Part shown: positions 2,299 through 7,553 of the stretch, in pieces | How the letters are laid out: each line of letters starts with the position of its first letter | Numbering within the stretch: the first letter of the stretch is position 1 | DNA from: Candidatus Poribacteria bacterium | GTDB taxonomy: Bacteria; Poribacteria; WGA-4E; WGA-3G | Assembly: GCA_028818995.1 (NCBI GenBank) | Contig: JAPPMR010000464.1 | Span: forward strand, 1 to 7,869 | Direction: 5' to 3' | DNA: 7,869 nt | Position numbers and translations under genes: made by a program | Notes under the pieces: generated by a model | What the model saw: only the letters and a program-made list of their open reading frames with translations | What the model was told of the DNA's origin: nothing | The model's database searches: none

Positions 2299-2457
2299 GT
2301 TTTGGGTAAGTGCGTCATGCCCAGATAGCGTCTGCCGGAGATCCTCTCTTCAGACTACTCCATACCCAAGGAGCCTTCCTTTGTCTATTTAAAATCTAAC
2401 ATCACGTTTTGATTTATAGGCGAGACAGATCCATAACCCTAAAGAAAGGGGGAAACC
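2299..2457 (+). promoter_or_regulatory. Presumed lanA promoter/leader region, possibly structured
   Basis: TTGGGTA (2302-2308) can pair with TACCCAA (2363-2369), extended by two T-G pairs. It encloses small hairpins CAGA/TCTG (2322-2325/2331-2334) and GAGA/TCTC (2338-2341/2345-2348). An alternative stem AAGGA/TCCTT (2368-2372/2377-2381) would compete with it. TAAAAT at 2390-2395 matches 5/6 of a -10 box but has no good -35 partner. The ribosome binding site is the purine tract AAAGGGGG (2445-2452), five bases before the ATG. I could not match the region to a known riboswitch. Confidence 0.3.
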
Positions 2458-2667
2458 ATGGCTACGATCCAGAAGCTCGAACTCAATAAGGAGACCATAA
2501 TGGTCCTTACTGAGTCTCCGAAGGTAGCAGTAGCAGAAGGTGACACCACTGATTCTTGCTTTATCACATTGCCACCTTTCTGTTGTCCTGAGACGCCAGA
2601 TACAATTTGCGACTGTTCATTTGAGACTTGCCAGTGTTATAGTTGTCCAGATACTCTTTGCTGCTAG
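2458..2667 (+). CDS. lanA: Class I lanthipeptide precursor
   Basis: A 69-residue precursor peptide. Residues 1-28 look like a leader: LELNKETIMVL (7-17) matches the LxLNKxTIxxL motif known from class I lanthipeptide precursors outside the Bacillota, and VAVAEG (23-28) is a plausible cleavage region. The predicted core, 29-69, has Cys at 34, 42, 43, 51, 53, 58, 60, 63, 68 and 69, and Ser/Thr at 30, 31, 33, 37, 46, 49, 54, 57, 62 and 66, ten of each. It contains seven Asp/Glu and no Lys, Arg or His, so it is strongly acidic, unlike cationic lantibiotics such as nisin. PDTxC occurs twice (47-51, 64-68). LanB would dehydrate Ser/Thr and LanC would add Cys to form thioether rings. The gene is preceded by a purine-rich ribosome binding site and followed by lanC and lanB on the same strand. 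The cleavage site, the number of rings and the activity are not shown by the sequence. Confidence 0.85.
   Translation: MATIQKLELNKETIMVLTESPKVAVAEGDTTDSCFITLPPFCCPETPDTICDCSFETCQCYSCPDTLCC
2596..2661 (+). repeat. In-frame 15-base duplication within the lanA core
   Basis: CCAGATACAATTTGC (2596-2610) and CCAGATACTCTTTGC (2647-2661) match at 13 of 15 positions in the same codon phase. They encode PDTIC and PDTLC. This suggests that the core grew by internal duplication of a ring-forming unit. Confidence 0.6.
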
Positions 2668-2716: not shown

Positions 2717-2786
2717 ATAGCCTGAGCGATTGGATTTAGAAAATAGGAGCTACACAGAATAGAGCTCAAATCGCTCAGGCTATTTT
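2717..2786 (+). terminator. 15-bp inverted repeat between lanA and lanC, possible attenuator
   Basis: ATAGCCTGAGCGATT (2717-2731) is a perfect inverted match to AATCGCTCAGGCTAT (2769-2783), with a 37-base loop that itself contains GAGCT/AGCTC (2747-2751/2763-2767). A short T run follows (2783-2786). It lies 49 bases after the lanA stop. Partial termination or 3'-end protection here would make precursor mRNA more abundant than enzyme mRNA, as is known for other lanA genes. The short T tract makes it leaky at best. The remaining stretch to lanC (2787-2955) shows no other gene and no convincing promoter. Confidence 0.6.
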
Positions 2787-2970: not shown

Positions 2971-4266
2971 ATGAAATCAGCTTGGAGACCTATCATAGAA
3001 GGTGGTCTGAGGGATGAGGTCAATGAGGTCATTATGGCAGTTGCCAGGGTTTTTCGAAAGTATGAATTAGGCGATTTCACACAGAATGATGACCAGAAAG
3101 AGCCTTATCTTTCGCTCCGAAGTCCTTCATTATATGGAGGACAAGCAGGTGTTGCGGTATTTTATACCTATCTTGCACAAATACGACCTGGGGAAGGACA
3201 TGAAAAAAGCGCAGTCTTCTTTCTCAATCAAGCTATACAGAAAACTGCCTCGGCCCTTTCTGCCCCTTCTCTTAGCAATGGTTTTATTGGTGTGGCTTGG
3301 GCGACTGAATACATTCGTCAGCGAATTCAGGCAGATGATTTAGGAGATCCCAATGAATCCGTGGACAATGCGCTGAGAATTTTACTCTCACGATTCCCTT
3401 GGAAAGGTAGTTACGATCCAATCAACGGCTTAGTTGGCATCGGGATTTACTTACTTGAACGGGTCCCTGATCCGGTAGCCGTTGAGTGTCTGGAACTTAT
3501 CATTGAACATCTTTACGAAAACGCTGAATTTAGTTCCAAAGGGACTACTTGGCATACACGTCCTGAGACAATGACCCAGGAGGGAAGGGAGCTATACCCA
3601 GAAGGTTATTACAATCTGGGGCTTGCACATGGTCTTCCTGGGATTATTTCATTTTTGGGCCGAGTGTGTTTGGCTGGGATATCCGCAGATCGGCCCTATG
3701 ACCTCCTTCAGGGTGCAGTTTCCTGGCTTCTTTCCCAGAAGCTTAATTGTCAAGGGTCGAGTTTTTATATGGGTATTGAAAAAGATAAAGATAGAGAACC
3801 ACAGCTTGCAAGGTCGGCCTGGTGCTATGGCAATCCCGGAATCGCGGCGGCTTTACTTACGGCTGCAAGGTGTGTCAAAGAACCTCAATGGGAATCAGAG
3901 GCAATAGAAATCGGACGAATAGCTGCTGAAAGACCGCCGGATGAAGCTGGTGTCATAGACTCAGGAATATGTCATGGGGCTTCAGGGCTTGGACATATTT
4001 TCAATCGTATTTTTCAAGTTACAGGTGAAACGGATTTTAAGCACGCCGCCCAGTATTGGTTTAAAAGAACAGTCGCTCTGAGAAGAACTGCCGGAGCAAC
4101 AACAGGTTTTTACGCAAAGACTCTGGATGATGATGGCGAGAAAATTCGGACTGAATTTCCTGGTATTCTTATTGGTGCTGCTGGTATTTCGATGGCTTTC
4201 CTTGGTGCCATCTCTTCTATTGAACCTGATTGGGACCGGATGATTTTGCTTTCAGCACCCTATTAA
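2971..4266 (+). CDS. lanC: Lanthionine synthetase C (LanC) cyclase
   Basis: A 431-residue, full-length cyclase that catalyses addition of Cys thiols to dehydroalanine/dehydrobutyrine in the LanB-treated precursor, giving (methyl)lanthionine rings. It is an alpha/alpha barrel with a zinc site. The motifs are in order: SLYGGQAGVAVFY (53-65), the YDPINGLVGIGIYLL block (148-162) with Asp149, LGLAHGLPGI (216-225) with His220, RSAWCYGNPG (281-290) with Arg281 and Cys285, and GICHGASGLGH (332-342) with Cys334 and His335. Cys285, Cys334 and His335 correspond to the three zinc ligands of NisC. Asp149, His220 and Arg281 correspond to its conserved active-site residues, so the enzyme should be active. 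The start is fixed by AAGGAGG (2956-2962), eight bases before the ATG. It is followed after 50 bases by lanB on the same strand, most likely as an operon. The long gap to lanA holds an inverted repeat. Confidence 0.95.
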   Translation: MKSAWRPIIEGGLRDEVNEVIMAVARVFRKYELGDFTQNDDQKEPYLSLRSPSLYGGQAGVAVFYTYLAQIRPGEGHEKSAVFFLNQAIQKTASALSAPSLSNGFIGVAWATEYIRQRIQADDLGDPNESVDNALRILLSRFPWKGSYDPINGLVGIGIYLLERVPDPVAVECLELIIEHLYENAEFSSKGTTWHTRPETMTQEGRELYPEGYYNLGLAHGLPGIISFLGRVCLAGISADRPYDLLQGAVSWLLSQKLNCQGSSFYMGIEKDKDREPQLARSAWCYGNPGIAAALLTAARCVKEPQWESEAIEIGRIAAERPPDEAGVIDSGICHGASGLGHIFNRIFQVTGETDFKHAAQYWFKRTVALRRTAGATTGFYAKTLDDDGEKIRTEFPGILIGAAGISMAFLGAISSIEPDWDRMILLSAPY

Positions 4267-4316
4267 AGTCAAATGGAATCACCTTATTTTAACATGATAA
4301 AGTTGAGGTATATCTG

Positions 4317-7300
4317 ATGTCGATGTCAACGCGAAAGGGATTTAAACCTTCAGGATTTTTTGTTCTCAGAACACCTCTTTTGCCATTTACTGAGTTTTTG
4401 AAATGGGGCGAAGATTTACTTATTTCAGACCAGAATATCTCCTCTTTTTCCCAAGAGACATTTGAAAGAGTACGTCAGCAACTTCGCAGTCGTCTTCAAG
4501 AGATTGTACATCGACCTGAAATAAGAGAAGCGTTATTCTTAGCCTCACCAAGTCTTGAGGAACGTATCAGCAAATGGTTTCAAGAATTAGAAAACAAAAA
4601 CACAAAAAAAATCGAAAATTCTATCATCAATTATTTTTCACGAATGACAGGTAGGGCAACTCCTTTTGGTTTATGTGCCGGATGTTCTATTGGTGTATTT
4701 GATTCCAAATCCCAACTTCGGGTTGAAAAGTCTTCTAAATACAGGCGGCATACGCGGCTCGATGCCGGTTTTCTTTATGCTCTTAGTAGAGACCTGCAAC
4801 AGTTGCCAGGAGTTTGCGAACAGCTAAAATACTATCCCAACGCAAGCCTCTATTTTGTGGCCGGAAAATTTCGGTATGTTGAAACTATATTTGAGGAAAA
4901 AATACGCAAGTATCATCTTGTAGGTGTTGAATCTACTGAATATCTCAATTCGACCATTGCGCTTGCACAGGAAGGGGCGCACATTGAGACGCTTGCTCAG
5001 GCTCTCGTTGATGAAGACATTTCGTTCATAGATGCCAAGAACTATATAAAAGCAGTGATAGAAAATCAGATTCTTGTGTCAGACCTGGAGCCACTCGTGA
5101 CGGGGGGTGAACCGGTCAATGATTTAATTCACCACTTAAAAAAAATTCCATCACTGACACCAATCACCACTTGTTTGAAAACCTTACAGCATTCTCTTCA
5201 AGAAATCGATAGATTTGGCTTGGGTATTAAACCCGAATGGTATCAAAAAATTGCTGAATCCCTTCATGGCCTACCAACGCAATTTGAAATTCACAGGTTG
5301 TTTCAAGTAGATTTGTTTAAACCAACGCTATCCTCTACTTTGGGCAAATCAGTATTGGATGAAATTTTCAAAGGCATAGAAATCCTTCACCTGTTGGGGA
5401 ATGTTCCACAACAGGATAACCTATCTCGTTTTCGCGAATCGTTTGTTAAAAGATATGGAAATAGAGAAATTCCTCTATGCGAGGCATTAGACGAAGAGTT
5501 CGGGATTGGTTTTACCGCATCGAATACCCCTGGAGCAGAAAATTCTCCATTACTTAAAGGATTGGAGTTTCCTGCCTCAACAGAAAAAACAAGAACTTGG
5601 GGGATGAAAGAACATTTCTTATTTGAAAAATTAGAAAAAGCATTGTCAGAGCAAAAGAGAGAAATCAGATTAGAACAACAGGATCTAAGCCGACTGCACA
5701 AAGATGATATACCTCCTCTTCCGGATGCTTTCTCAGTATCTGTAAATATTGCTGCTTGTTCAGAAGAGGAGTTGTCACGAGGAAATTTTCGTATGACCAT
5801 TGGAGGGCTGTTAGGTCCATCAGGGGTGCGGTTACTGGGCCGATTCTGTCACGCGGATTCATTATTGCGCTCTCAGGTAGAAAATCATATTCAGGAAGAA
5901 GAGCGTTTGAATCCAGATGCAGTATATGCAGAAGTCGTTCACATTCCACAAGGTCGCACGGGAAACGTGATCTTCCGTCCAATTTTGCGTTCCCATGAGA
6001 TTCCGTATCTTGGTCGTTCGGGAGCTGTTTCCGATCAACAGATTCCTGTTACTGATCTGATGGTATCCGTAGTTGGTGCACGTGTTATATTGAGATCCAG
6101 ACGATTAGGACGTGAAGTAATCCCGAGATTAACAAGTGCTCATAATTATTTTAGTGGTAGTTTACCCATTTACCACTTCTTGGGAACACTTCAAGATCAA
6201 GATATCGCCAAAGGTTTGCACTGGAATTGGGGTATTTTTGAGGGTGCTCGTTTTCTCCCCCGTGTTTCTATTGGCAAGATTGTACTCTGTCGTGCTCGCT
6301 GGCGGATCTATCGCGAGGAATTGGAGATACTGACCAGGACAAATGGTGTTGAGCTATTCAGAGCAGTTCAAGATCTACGCACGAAGCGAAAAATGCCTCG
6401 CTTCGTGCGTCTTTCCGAAGGAGATAATGAGCTTCCGATTGATTTTGAGAATGTACTAAGTGTTGAAAATTTTGTGCGTATTGCCAAAAATCGAAATCAG
6501 ATTACGTTGATAGAGATGTTTCCGGAAGCAAAGGAGCTTTGCGTCACAGGTGATACTGGTTCTTATGTCTCTGAAATCATAGTGCCTTTTGTAAAAACAA
6601 AAAATACCGAGAAGAGAGAATCTGTTAGAAAAAATCACAATATTTTATCTGTTCAATCCAATAATCCGATACAGCGATGTTTCTCGCCAGGATCAGAATG
6701 GCTCTATCTTAAATTGTATTGTAGCATTTCCAATGCTGATTTAATACTCAGAGATGCAGTTCCTCAAGTCTGGCACCAATTGTTTTCTGCCCGAATTATT
6801 GACCAATGGTTTTTCATTAGATATAGCGACCCTGATTGGCATTTACGGATTCGATTTCATGTTTGTCCTGATAAGAACTGTGAAGATGTGATTTCTATGC
6901 TTTACAAAACCTTTGATCCACTCTTGTCTAATGGCTTAATATGGCGTATTCAATTGGACACTTATGAGCGCGAAATTGAGCGTTACGGCGGTCCGGCAGG
7001 TATTGAGAGTGCAGAGAAGATATTCCACGTCGATAGCGAGGCTGTATTGAATATCATCCACAGTTATCCCTCTGATAAAGGTATGGATACCCGCTGTCAT
7101 TTAGCACTTCTGGGAATTGATCGGTTGCTGTCAAATTTCGGTTTTGATCTTCAAGCTAAGTACGAATTAGTCAAGACATGTCGTGAAATTTTTGGCAGAG
7201 AATTCAGAGCAGATACGACCTCTCTGCGGCATCAATTAGGCCGAAAATTTCGTCAGGAACGACGGAGTCTCGAGTCCTTAATGGATATAGGATTGTTAAG

Positions 7301-7553
7301 AAACAGTCCAATTGCACGCGGGCTTGAGATATTAAACAACCGGTCCAGGAGACTGAAACCTCTTATCAAAGAGATGGAAATGATAGGTCAAAATGGTGAA
7401 CTCGGCTTATCACTGCGAGAAATGGTGCCGAGTTTTACCCATATGTTTGTAAATCGTCTTCTACGTTCGTCTCAAAGAGCACAGGAGTTGGTCCTCTATG
7501 ATTTTCTTCGGCGTCTCTATGATTCGCAGATTGCGAGAAATCGCTCTAAATGA
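4317..7553 (+). CDS. lanB: Class I lanthipeptide dehydratase (LanB), full length
   Basis: A 1078-residue protein, somewhat longer than NisB (993). LanB enzymes glutamylate precursor Ser/Thr using glutamyl-tRNA(Glu) and then eliminate glutamate to give dehydro residues. The glutamylation domain covers about 1-760. It has SRMTGRATPFGLCAG (108-122), a winged-helix-like segment around 210-262 that probably binds the leader, FRPILRSHEIPYLG (553-566), DLMVSVVGARVIL (580-592) and PRFVRL (694-699). The elimination domain (about 794-1070) has WLYLKLYC (795-802), WFFIRYSDPDWHLRIRF (831-847), YEREIERYGG (883-892) and HMFVNR (1042-1047). His1042 matches the catalytic His of the NisB elimination site. Both domains are present, unlike the split versions of thiopeptide clusters. 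GAGG at 4305-4308 stands eight bases before the ATG; the ATG at 4323 is a weaker alternative. Residues 687-699 lie over a perfect inverted repeat in the DNA. Confidence 0.95.
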   Translation: MSMSTRKGFKPSGFFVLRTPLLPFTEFLKWGEDLLISDQNISSFSQETFERVRQQLRSRLQEIVHRPEIREALFLASPSLEERISKWFQELENKNTKKIENSIINYFSRMTGRATPFGLCAGCSIGVFDSKSQLRVEKSSKYRRHTRLDAGFLYALSRDLQQLPGVCEQLKYYPNASLYFVAGKFRYVETIFEEKIRKYHLVGVESTEYLNSTIALAQEGAHIETLAQALVDEDISFIDAKNYIKAVIENQILVSDLEPLVTGGEPVNDLIHHLKKIPSLTPITTCLKTLQHSLQEIDRFGLGIKPEWYQKIAESLHGLPTQFEIHRLFQVDLFKPTLSSTLGKSVLDEIFKGIEILHLLGNVPQQDNLSRFRESFVKRYGNREIPLCEALDEEFGIGFTASNTPGAENSPLLKGLEFPASTEKTRTWGMKEHFLFEKLEKALSEQKREIRLEQQDLSRLHKDDIPPLPDAFSVSVNIAACSEEELSRGNFRMTIGGLLGPSGVRLLGRFCHADSLLRSQVENHIQEEERLNPDAVYAEVVHIPQGRTGNVIFRPILRSHEIPYLGRSGAVSDQQIPVTDLMVSVVGARVILRSRRLGREVIPRLTSAHNYFSGSLPIYHFLGTLQDQDIAKGLHWNWGIFEGARFLPRVSIGKIVLCRARWRIYREELEILTRTNGVELFRAVQDLRTKRKMPRFVRLSEGDNELPIDFENVLSVENFVRIAKNRNQITLIEMFPEAKELCVTGDTGSYVSEIIVPFVKTKNTEKRESVRKNHNILSVQSNNPIQRCFSPGSEWLYLKLYCSISNADLILRDAVPQVWHQLFSARIIDQWFFIRYSDPDWHLRIRFHVCPDKNCEDVISMLYKTFDPLLSNGLIWRIQLDTYEREIERYGGPAGIESAEKIFHVDSEAVLNIIHSYPSDKGMDTRCHLALLGIDRLLSNFGFDLQAKYELVKTCREIFGREFRADTTSLRHQLGRKFRQERRSLESLMDIGLLRNSPIARGLEILNNRSRRLKPLIKEMEMIGQNGELGLSLREMVPSFTHMFVNRLLRSSQRAQELVLYDFLRRLYDSQIARNRSK
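6377..6410. repeat. 13-bp perfect inverted repeat inside lanB
   Basis: ACGCACGAAGCGA (6377-6389) and TCGCTTCGTGCGT (6398-6410) are exact reverse complements, separated by an 8-base loop AAAATGCC. The stem is G+C-rich in an A+T-rich gene and encodes lanB residues 687-699, just before and across the PRFVRL block. It would form a stable mRNA hairpin. No T run follows, so it is not a standard terminator. Confidence 0.8.

Follow-up and report, generated by a model that had tools for sequence, protein, structure and literature searches.

The window analysed here, by which we mean the whole stretch of DNA of 7,869 nucleotides, contains a small gene, lanA, that almost certainly encodes a class I lanthipeptide precursor and that is followed downstream by lanC and then lanB, all on the + strand. 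Our best explanation overall, held with modest confidence, is that the precursor would be converted into a lanthipeptide with about eight to ten rings and would serve as an acidic secreted antagonist. The precursor gene and its parts are the following (positions are those of the window).

2445..2453, + strand: AAAGGGGGA, a purine-rich stretch 5' of the lanA ATG, read off the sequence and resembling a ribosome-binding site, its putative function
2458..2667, + strand: lanA, 69-amino-acid lanthipeptide precursor, stop codon included (from the ORF, its composition and one 94% identical relative)
2476..2508, + strand: leader motif LxLxKx5L (LELNKETIMVL, residues 7-17), read off the sequence
2518..2532, + strand: variable linker, residues 21-25, where all four differences from the relative P0001 fall
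2542..2664, + strand: predicted core, residues 29-69, identical in P0001; the core start is a prediction

The lanA reading frame opens with ATG, closes with TAG and encodes 69 amino acids. An initial annotation of this DNA had described a core with equal numbers of Cys and Ser/Thr, two CC pairs, seven acidic and no basic residues, and a recount of positions 2458-2667 agrees: the predicted core of 41 amino acids holds ten Cys (five TGC and five TGT codons), ten Ser/Thr (seven Thr and three Ser), five Asp, two Glu and no Lys or Arg, with a net charge of -7, and it contains the motifs CDC, CQC and CYSC next to the two CC pairs. The start of this core at residue 29 is a guess taken over from that annotation; the leader ends in AVAEG, without a GG, and only AEG precedes the predicted core. 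Such a composition does not come from a chance reading frame: when the window was shuffled 100 times with its dinucleotides preserved and read in six frames, no open stretch of 41 codons held ten Cys, and the highest count per shuffle ranged from 4 to 8. Walker et al. (PMC7268733) describe LxLxKx5L as the motif found in the leaders of some class I precursors from Bacteroidetes. The NCBIfam model of the class I lanthipeptide leader, NF038153 (lant_leader_L1a), aligns with residues 6-20 of lanA at 14.9 bits (E 0.022), which falls short of its curated cut-off of 22 bits, and lanA is not filed as a member. Annotation based on NF038153 would therefore miss lanA despite the clear leader at 2476-2508. 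The gene thus combines a leader with a Ser/Thr/Cys-rich C-terminal core and adjoins lanBC, as is found in class I systems. Bacteroidetes precursors of the NF038153 type likewise have the LxLxKx5L motif, are modified by LanB and LanC, and often have acidic cores, whereas lanA is without a GG site and without a C39 transporter recognised in the window. A leader ending in GG and a C39 protease-transporter are, in the account given in PMC7268733, features of many, but not all, NF038153-type precursors of Bacteroidota.

A word-based search of about 5.8 billion proteins, which detects only proteins with exact shared 5-residue words, returned a single relative of lanA, P0001, which is 94% identical; a leader-only search of the same proteins, again limited to exact 5-residue words, gave P0001 and nothing further. 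Residues 1-20 are identical in the two proteins and the four substitutions lie at residues 21, 22, 24 and 25. A homologue with an unconserved core had been named in the initial annotation as the case that would speak against it; P0001 instead retains the core at 41 of 41 positions, which is suggestive of constraint on the core, judged from this one relative (n = 1). Two Sinorhizobium matches obtained by tblastn of plasmids with lanA (E 3 and 5) were taken as chance, and a scan of the two fetched Sinorhizobium loci for Cys-rich short ORFs found nothing precursor-like. Likewise, lanA matched 26 of 390 Bacteroidota genomes at E <= 0.1 per genome (best 0.002), where about 39 would be expected by chance, and these matches were set aside. 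Relatives of lanA or of the window's pentapeptide-repeat protein were not found in the viral contigs searched, and a distant BLASTN of the whole window against plasmids gave no match.

The features downstream of lanA comprise the two modification enzymes and an inverted repeat.

2717..2783, + strand: inverted repeat in the lanA-lanC gap, with 18-nt arms (94% complementary) and a 31-nt loop
2971..4266, + strand: lanC, lanthionine cyclase of 431 amino acids (PF05147, 142.7 bits; profile matches to 8byk and NisC)
4317..7553, + strand: lanB, full-length dehydratase of 1078 amino acids with glutamylation and elimination domains (PF04738, 526 bits; PF14028, 241.6 bits)

In LanC, C285, C334 and H335 do not vary among 27 aligned LanC sequences, and they are the counterparts of the NisC zinc ligands. 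The residues R87, T89, D121, R786, E823 and R826 of NisB are matched in LanB by R113, T115, D149, R846, E886 and R889, and H961 is matched by H1042 only via a separate, low-scoring segment (3.3 bits); all of these NisB residues, H961 included, have catalytic roles. Thus, LanB carries both domains together with active-site residues, LanC carries a Cys-Cys-His zinc site, and from these residues both enzymes look functional. A thiopeptide assignment, suggested by a match of LanB to TIGR03891, was rejected: what this model describes is a C-terminal domain that full-length LanB proteins have too, and the cluster also contains a LanC. In the lanA-lanC gap, the region 2668-2800 folds at -34.2 kcal/mol (z -2.89), and 1 of 200 shuffles was as stable; the inverted repeat was not reported by a terminator scan covering loops of 3-8 only. 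It is a possible attenuator or transcript stabiliser, and it may keep lanA transcripts in excess. No transporter, protease, C39 or ABC transporter was found among the Pfam and NCBIfam matches of the seven window ORFs scanned, and the lan cluster may be cut short by the window edge.

Elsewhere in the window, a divergent gene (961-2013, - strand) encodes a protein whose N-terminal part resembles a helix-turn-helix and which also contains pentapeptide repeats (PF00805). Proteins with such repeats in some cases confer self-immunity to gyrase-targeting peptides. Moreover, a 35-nt palindromic repeat, GGGGATCGG...CCCC, is present in three copies that are 66-100% alike (279-313, 672-706 and 833-867), two of which lie shortly downstream of ORF ends; the copies are perhaps terminator-like dispersed repeats of the source genome.

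The acidity and Cys content of the lanA core were compared with those of other precursors. To collect comparison loci, NF038153 was run against overlapping sets of 395, 248 and 246 Bacteroidota genomes, where it scored above cut-off in 9, 12 and 16 genomes, respectively; further loci came from LanB/LanC relatives and plasmids. With L017, L059 and L060 left out beforehand, the scan found 119 leader-motif ORFs, and the removal of 9 on the basis of their locus left 110. Eight of the nine dropped ORFs resembled non-precursor reading frames; the dropped L120 ORF has a convincing leader (LSLKKDYVSEL...GG) and is probably a genuine precursor; its core, with 2 Cys and a net charge of +6, runs counter to the acidic trend. 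Among the 110 precursors, which form a non-random sample drawn entirely from Bacteroidota loci (cluster loci and leader-selected matches), were not clustered by identity, count tandem paralogues repeatedly and may include a few that are not genes, the core was net negative in 72, neutral in 22 and positive in 16 (mean -1.6); with the L120 ORF counted, 72 of 111 were negative and 17 positive. A net charge of -7 or lower was reached by 6 of the 110, with an extreme of -14, and the lanA core is not the most acidic, as two comparison cores also surpass its value of -0.17 per residue. The ten Cys of lanA exceed all comparison cores, which have 0 to 9, and two short comparison cores are denser in Cys than lanA, with up to 7 in 23 residues. 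The locus L089 (genome G497) carries very short Cys-dense precursors, one of them with 7 Cys in a 23-residue core.

The 94 experimentally defined lanthipeptides treated in PMC11251773 are described there as having positively charged cores, and a net-positive core is also the mark of cationic membrane-targeting lantibiotics of the nisin type, from which the lanA core is set apart by its charge. The contrast drawn in the initial annotation with membrane-targeting lantibiotics is therefore supported, whereas the idea that an acidic core is exceptional among precursors of this type finds no support in Bacteroidota, where most precursors in our sample are net negative; from these sequences, the acidity of lanA appears distinctive only in the first comparison, not among genome-encoded relatives. 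In the open-licence literature, we found no paper under the terms acidic or anionic lanthipeptide or lantibiotic.

The six comparison cores that reach -7 or lower are members of a single family, from genomes G792 and G212. Among 316 genomes from the same taxonomic family, a profile of these six (A2) had matches in 9 at E <= 0.001; the match in one of the nine, G853, was weak and involved a different precursor type. The family loci are in G792 (L150, L161), G212 (L151, L160), G1028 (L162), G1015 (L163), G1008 (L164), G996 (L165), G859 (L166) and G1043 (L167). The 22 precursors from the matched loci have 6-9 Cys and net charges of -5 to -14, and are often tandem. In the two family clusters examined, lanA, lanC and lanB are followed by a C39 peptidase transporter, and the precursors are acidic with 7-9 Cys. 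The family is thus like lanA in its A-C-B order (two clusters), its highly acidic cores and its LxLxKx5L leader, and unlike it in its cores of 55-71 amino acids, its GG leaders, its adjoining C39 transporter and its tandem precursors. One G792 precursor aligns with lanA at 24.3 bits (32% identity over 62 residues, E 5e-5 in a single comparison), a weak similarity driven by the leader motif and Cys. The LanB and LanC of G792 are 28% and 24% identical to those of the window. Class I precursors that are both acidic and rich in Cys thus occur more than once, beside enzymes that are only distantly related. The nearest LanB among plasmid records, 36% identical, is that of the Spirosoma oryzicola plasmid NZ_CP089546.1 (L014), where six tandem acidic precursors adjoin LanB at 4257-5805. 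These six resemble lanA in being acidic (net -4 to -6) with CC pairs, and differ from it in having four Cys per core, GG leaders and a tandem arrangement. In the 15-kb L014 locus, tblastn with the window's LanC found no LanC (E <= 1e-5).

The number of rings was approached with the rule given in PMC11251773, by which the Cys are taken in order from the C-terminal end and each is joined to the closest Ser/Thr that is still free and lies 3 or more residues upstream. This rule is reported there to have reproduced 92 of 100 known bridging patterns, and is considered by its authors less reliable for complex peptides. Applied to the lanA core without the labionin branch, it paired all ten Cys, a count that held wherever between residues 21 and 30 the core was taken to begin (pairs in core numbering: T2-C6, T3-C14, S5-C15, T9-C23, T18-C25, T21-C30, S26-C32, T29-C35, S34-C40 and T38-C41), and the up to ten rings proposed in the initial annotation are thus combinatorially possible. 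All ten Cys were paired in 175 of 5000 shuffles of the lanA core (3.5%). If rings may span only 3-12 residues, the core accommodates nine of them, and with spans of 3-8, eight; the looser counts of 10, 9 and 8 rings were reached in 8.8%, 10.4% and 13.6% of core shuffles, respectively. The rule also gave full pairing in 84 of the 104 Cys-bearing comparison precursors, including 11 of the 14 with six or more Cys, and in 23-43% of the shuffles of six G792/G212 acidic cores. A fully paired core is thus weak evidence that every Cys is bridged, since other precursors and shuffled cores often pair fully as well. In the acidic family, the rule pairs every Cys in 22 of 22 precursors; selection for full bridging, considered as the reason, was not retained, as it is weakened by the 84 of 104 and by the shuffle control.

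Seven bridges, in geobacillin I and elgicin, is the most that PMC11251773 gives for known lanthipeptides, which bears out the seven rings given for geobacillin I in the initial annotation and adds elgicin as its equal; the largest number predicted in the survey of 2785 genomes reported there is eight. Geobacillin I, elgicin and nisin are class I like lanA, but have fewer bridges than the ten possible in lanA. A class I lanthipeptide with about four to seven rings, in which LanB dehydration would be partial, CC and CxC would be partly unbridged and the rest of the Cys would be free or in disulfides, is an alternative that we regard as rather improbable. It would fit the seven bridges of known peptides, the frequency of complete pairing elsewhere and the geometry of the core: S5-C6, T29-C30 and S34-C35 are adjacent, so that some pairings need long or crossing rings, and the complete pairing includes 13 crossing pairs and one span of 14, with only nine or eight rings fitting under the span limits. 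The equal numbers of Cys and Ser/Thr, the complete upstream pairing attained by few shuffles of the core and the unchanged core of P0001 argue against it. From the sequence, ten rings on the lanA core are possible and mildly favoured, and we lean narrowly towards a predicted product with at least eight.

The relationships of the two enzymes bear on the lineage of the cluster. LanC has a sister, P0003, that is 88% identical; among the best 120 of 181 relatives, nearly all others are 37-50% identical, with one partial match at 52%, and the first with a named organism are from Acidobacteria, at 40-43%. Against the LanCs tested from Bacteroidota, its identity is only 23-30%, and against one Streptomyces plasmid LanC it is 37%. 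LanB is 34-36% identical to LanBs of Chitinophaga, Spirosoma and Cupriavidus, and its best relatives among the loci searched are from Bacteroidota (36%). The two enzymes therefore point different ways, and the host need not be a member of Bacteroidota, though the LxLxKx5L motif has been described there.

Taken as a pathway, LanB would bind the LxLxKx5L leader of the lanA precursor, glutamylate Ser/Thr of the core from glutamyl-tRNA and then eliminate glutamate to leave dehydroamino acids. Zinc-loaded LanC would join the Cys thiols to these, closing about eight to ten (methyl)lanthionine rings. Genes outside the window would provide for export and for cleavage of the leader. The product might then be a compact, protease-resistant, strongly acidic polycyclic peptide that is secreted and that might antagonise neighbouring microbes via a protein or a cationic surface target, not via anionic membranes. 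We regard this antagonistic role as possible rather than probable.

Some lanthipeptides act in development. SapT is a morphogenetic lanthipeptide. SapB is another, as noted in PMC7268733. A signalling or developmental role of this kind instead of antagonism would agree with the acidic, non-cationic composition and with the finding that none of the seven ORFs scanned matched a lanthipeptide-immunity family. None of them matched a family of sensor kinases or response regulators either, which speaks against such a role, and we consider it unlikely. A metallothionein-like, metal-chelating peptide, in which the CC, CxC and CxxC spacing (two CC, CDC, CQC, CYSC) and the seven acidic residues of the core would bind metal while thioethers were partial or capped the fold, is very improbable, given that LanB and LanC with intact active sites adjoin the gene, that thioethers would use up the thiols on which metallothioneins depend and that no metal-transport or metal-regulator family was matched by the seven ORFs scanned.

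To conclude, the reading that we prefer, an acidic, secreted class I lanthipeptide with many rings, makes lanA an extension of a recognisable acidic-lanthipeptide group and not something wholly new. A bolder version, put forward tentatively and to our mind doubtful, is that lanA carries nine or ten thioether rings, exceeding any known lanthipeptide, that with the G792-type family it represents a neglected anionic, Cys-saturated class whose target would be neither anionic membranes nor lipid II, and that its lineage may lie outside Bacteroidota. A product with every one of its ten Cys bridged would go beyond both the known maximum of seven bridges and the largest number, eight, among the predictions reported in PMC11251773, and it would test the reach of one LanB/LanC pair acting on one 41-residue core. 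Since the acidic composition recurs with distantly related enzymes (LanB 28%, LanC 24%), anionic lanthipeptides may be a neglected group, for which the usual anionic membrane would be an unlikely target.
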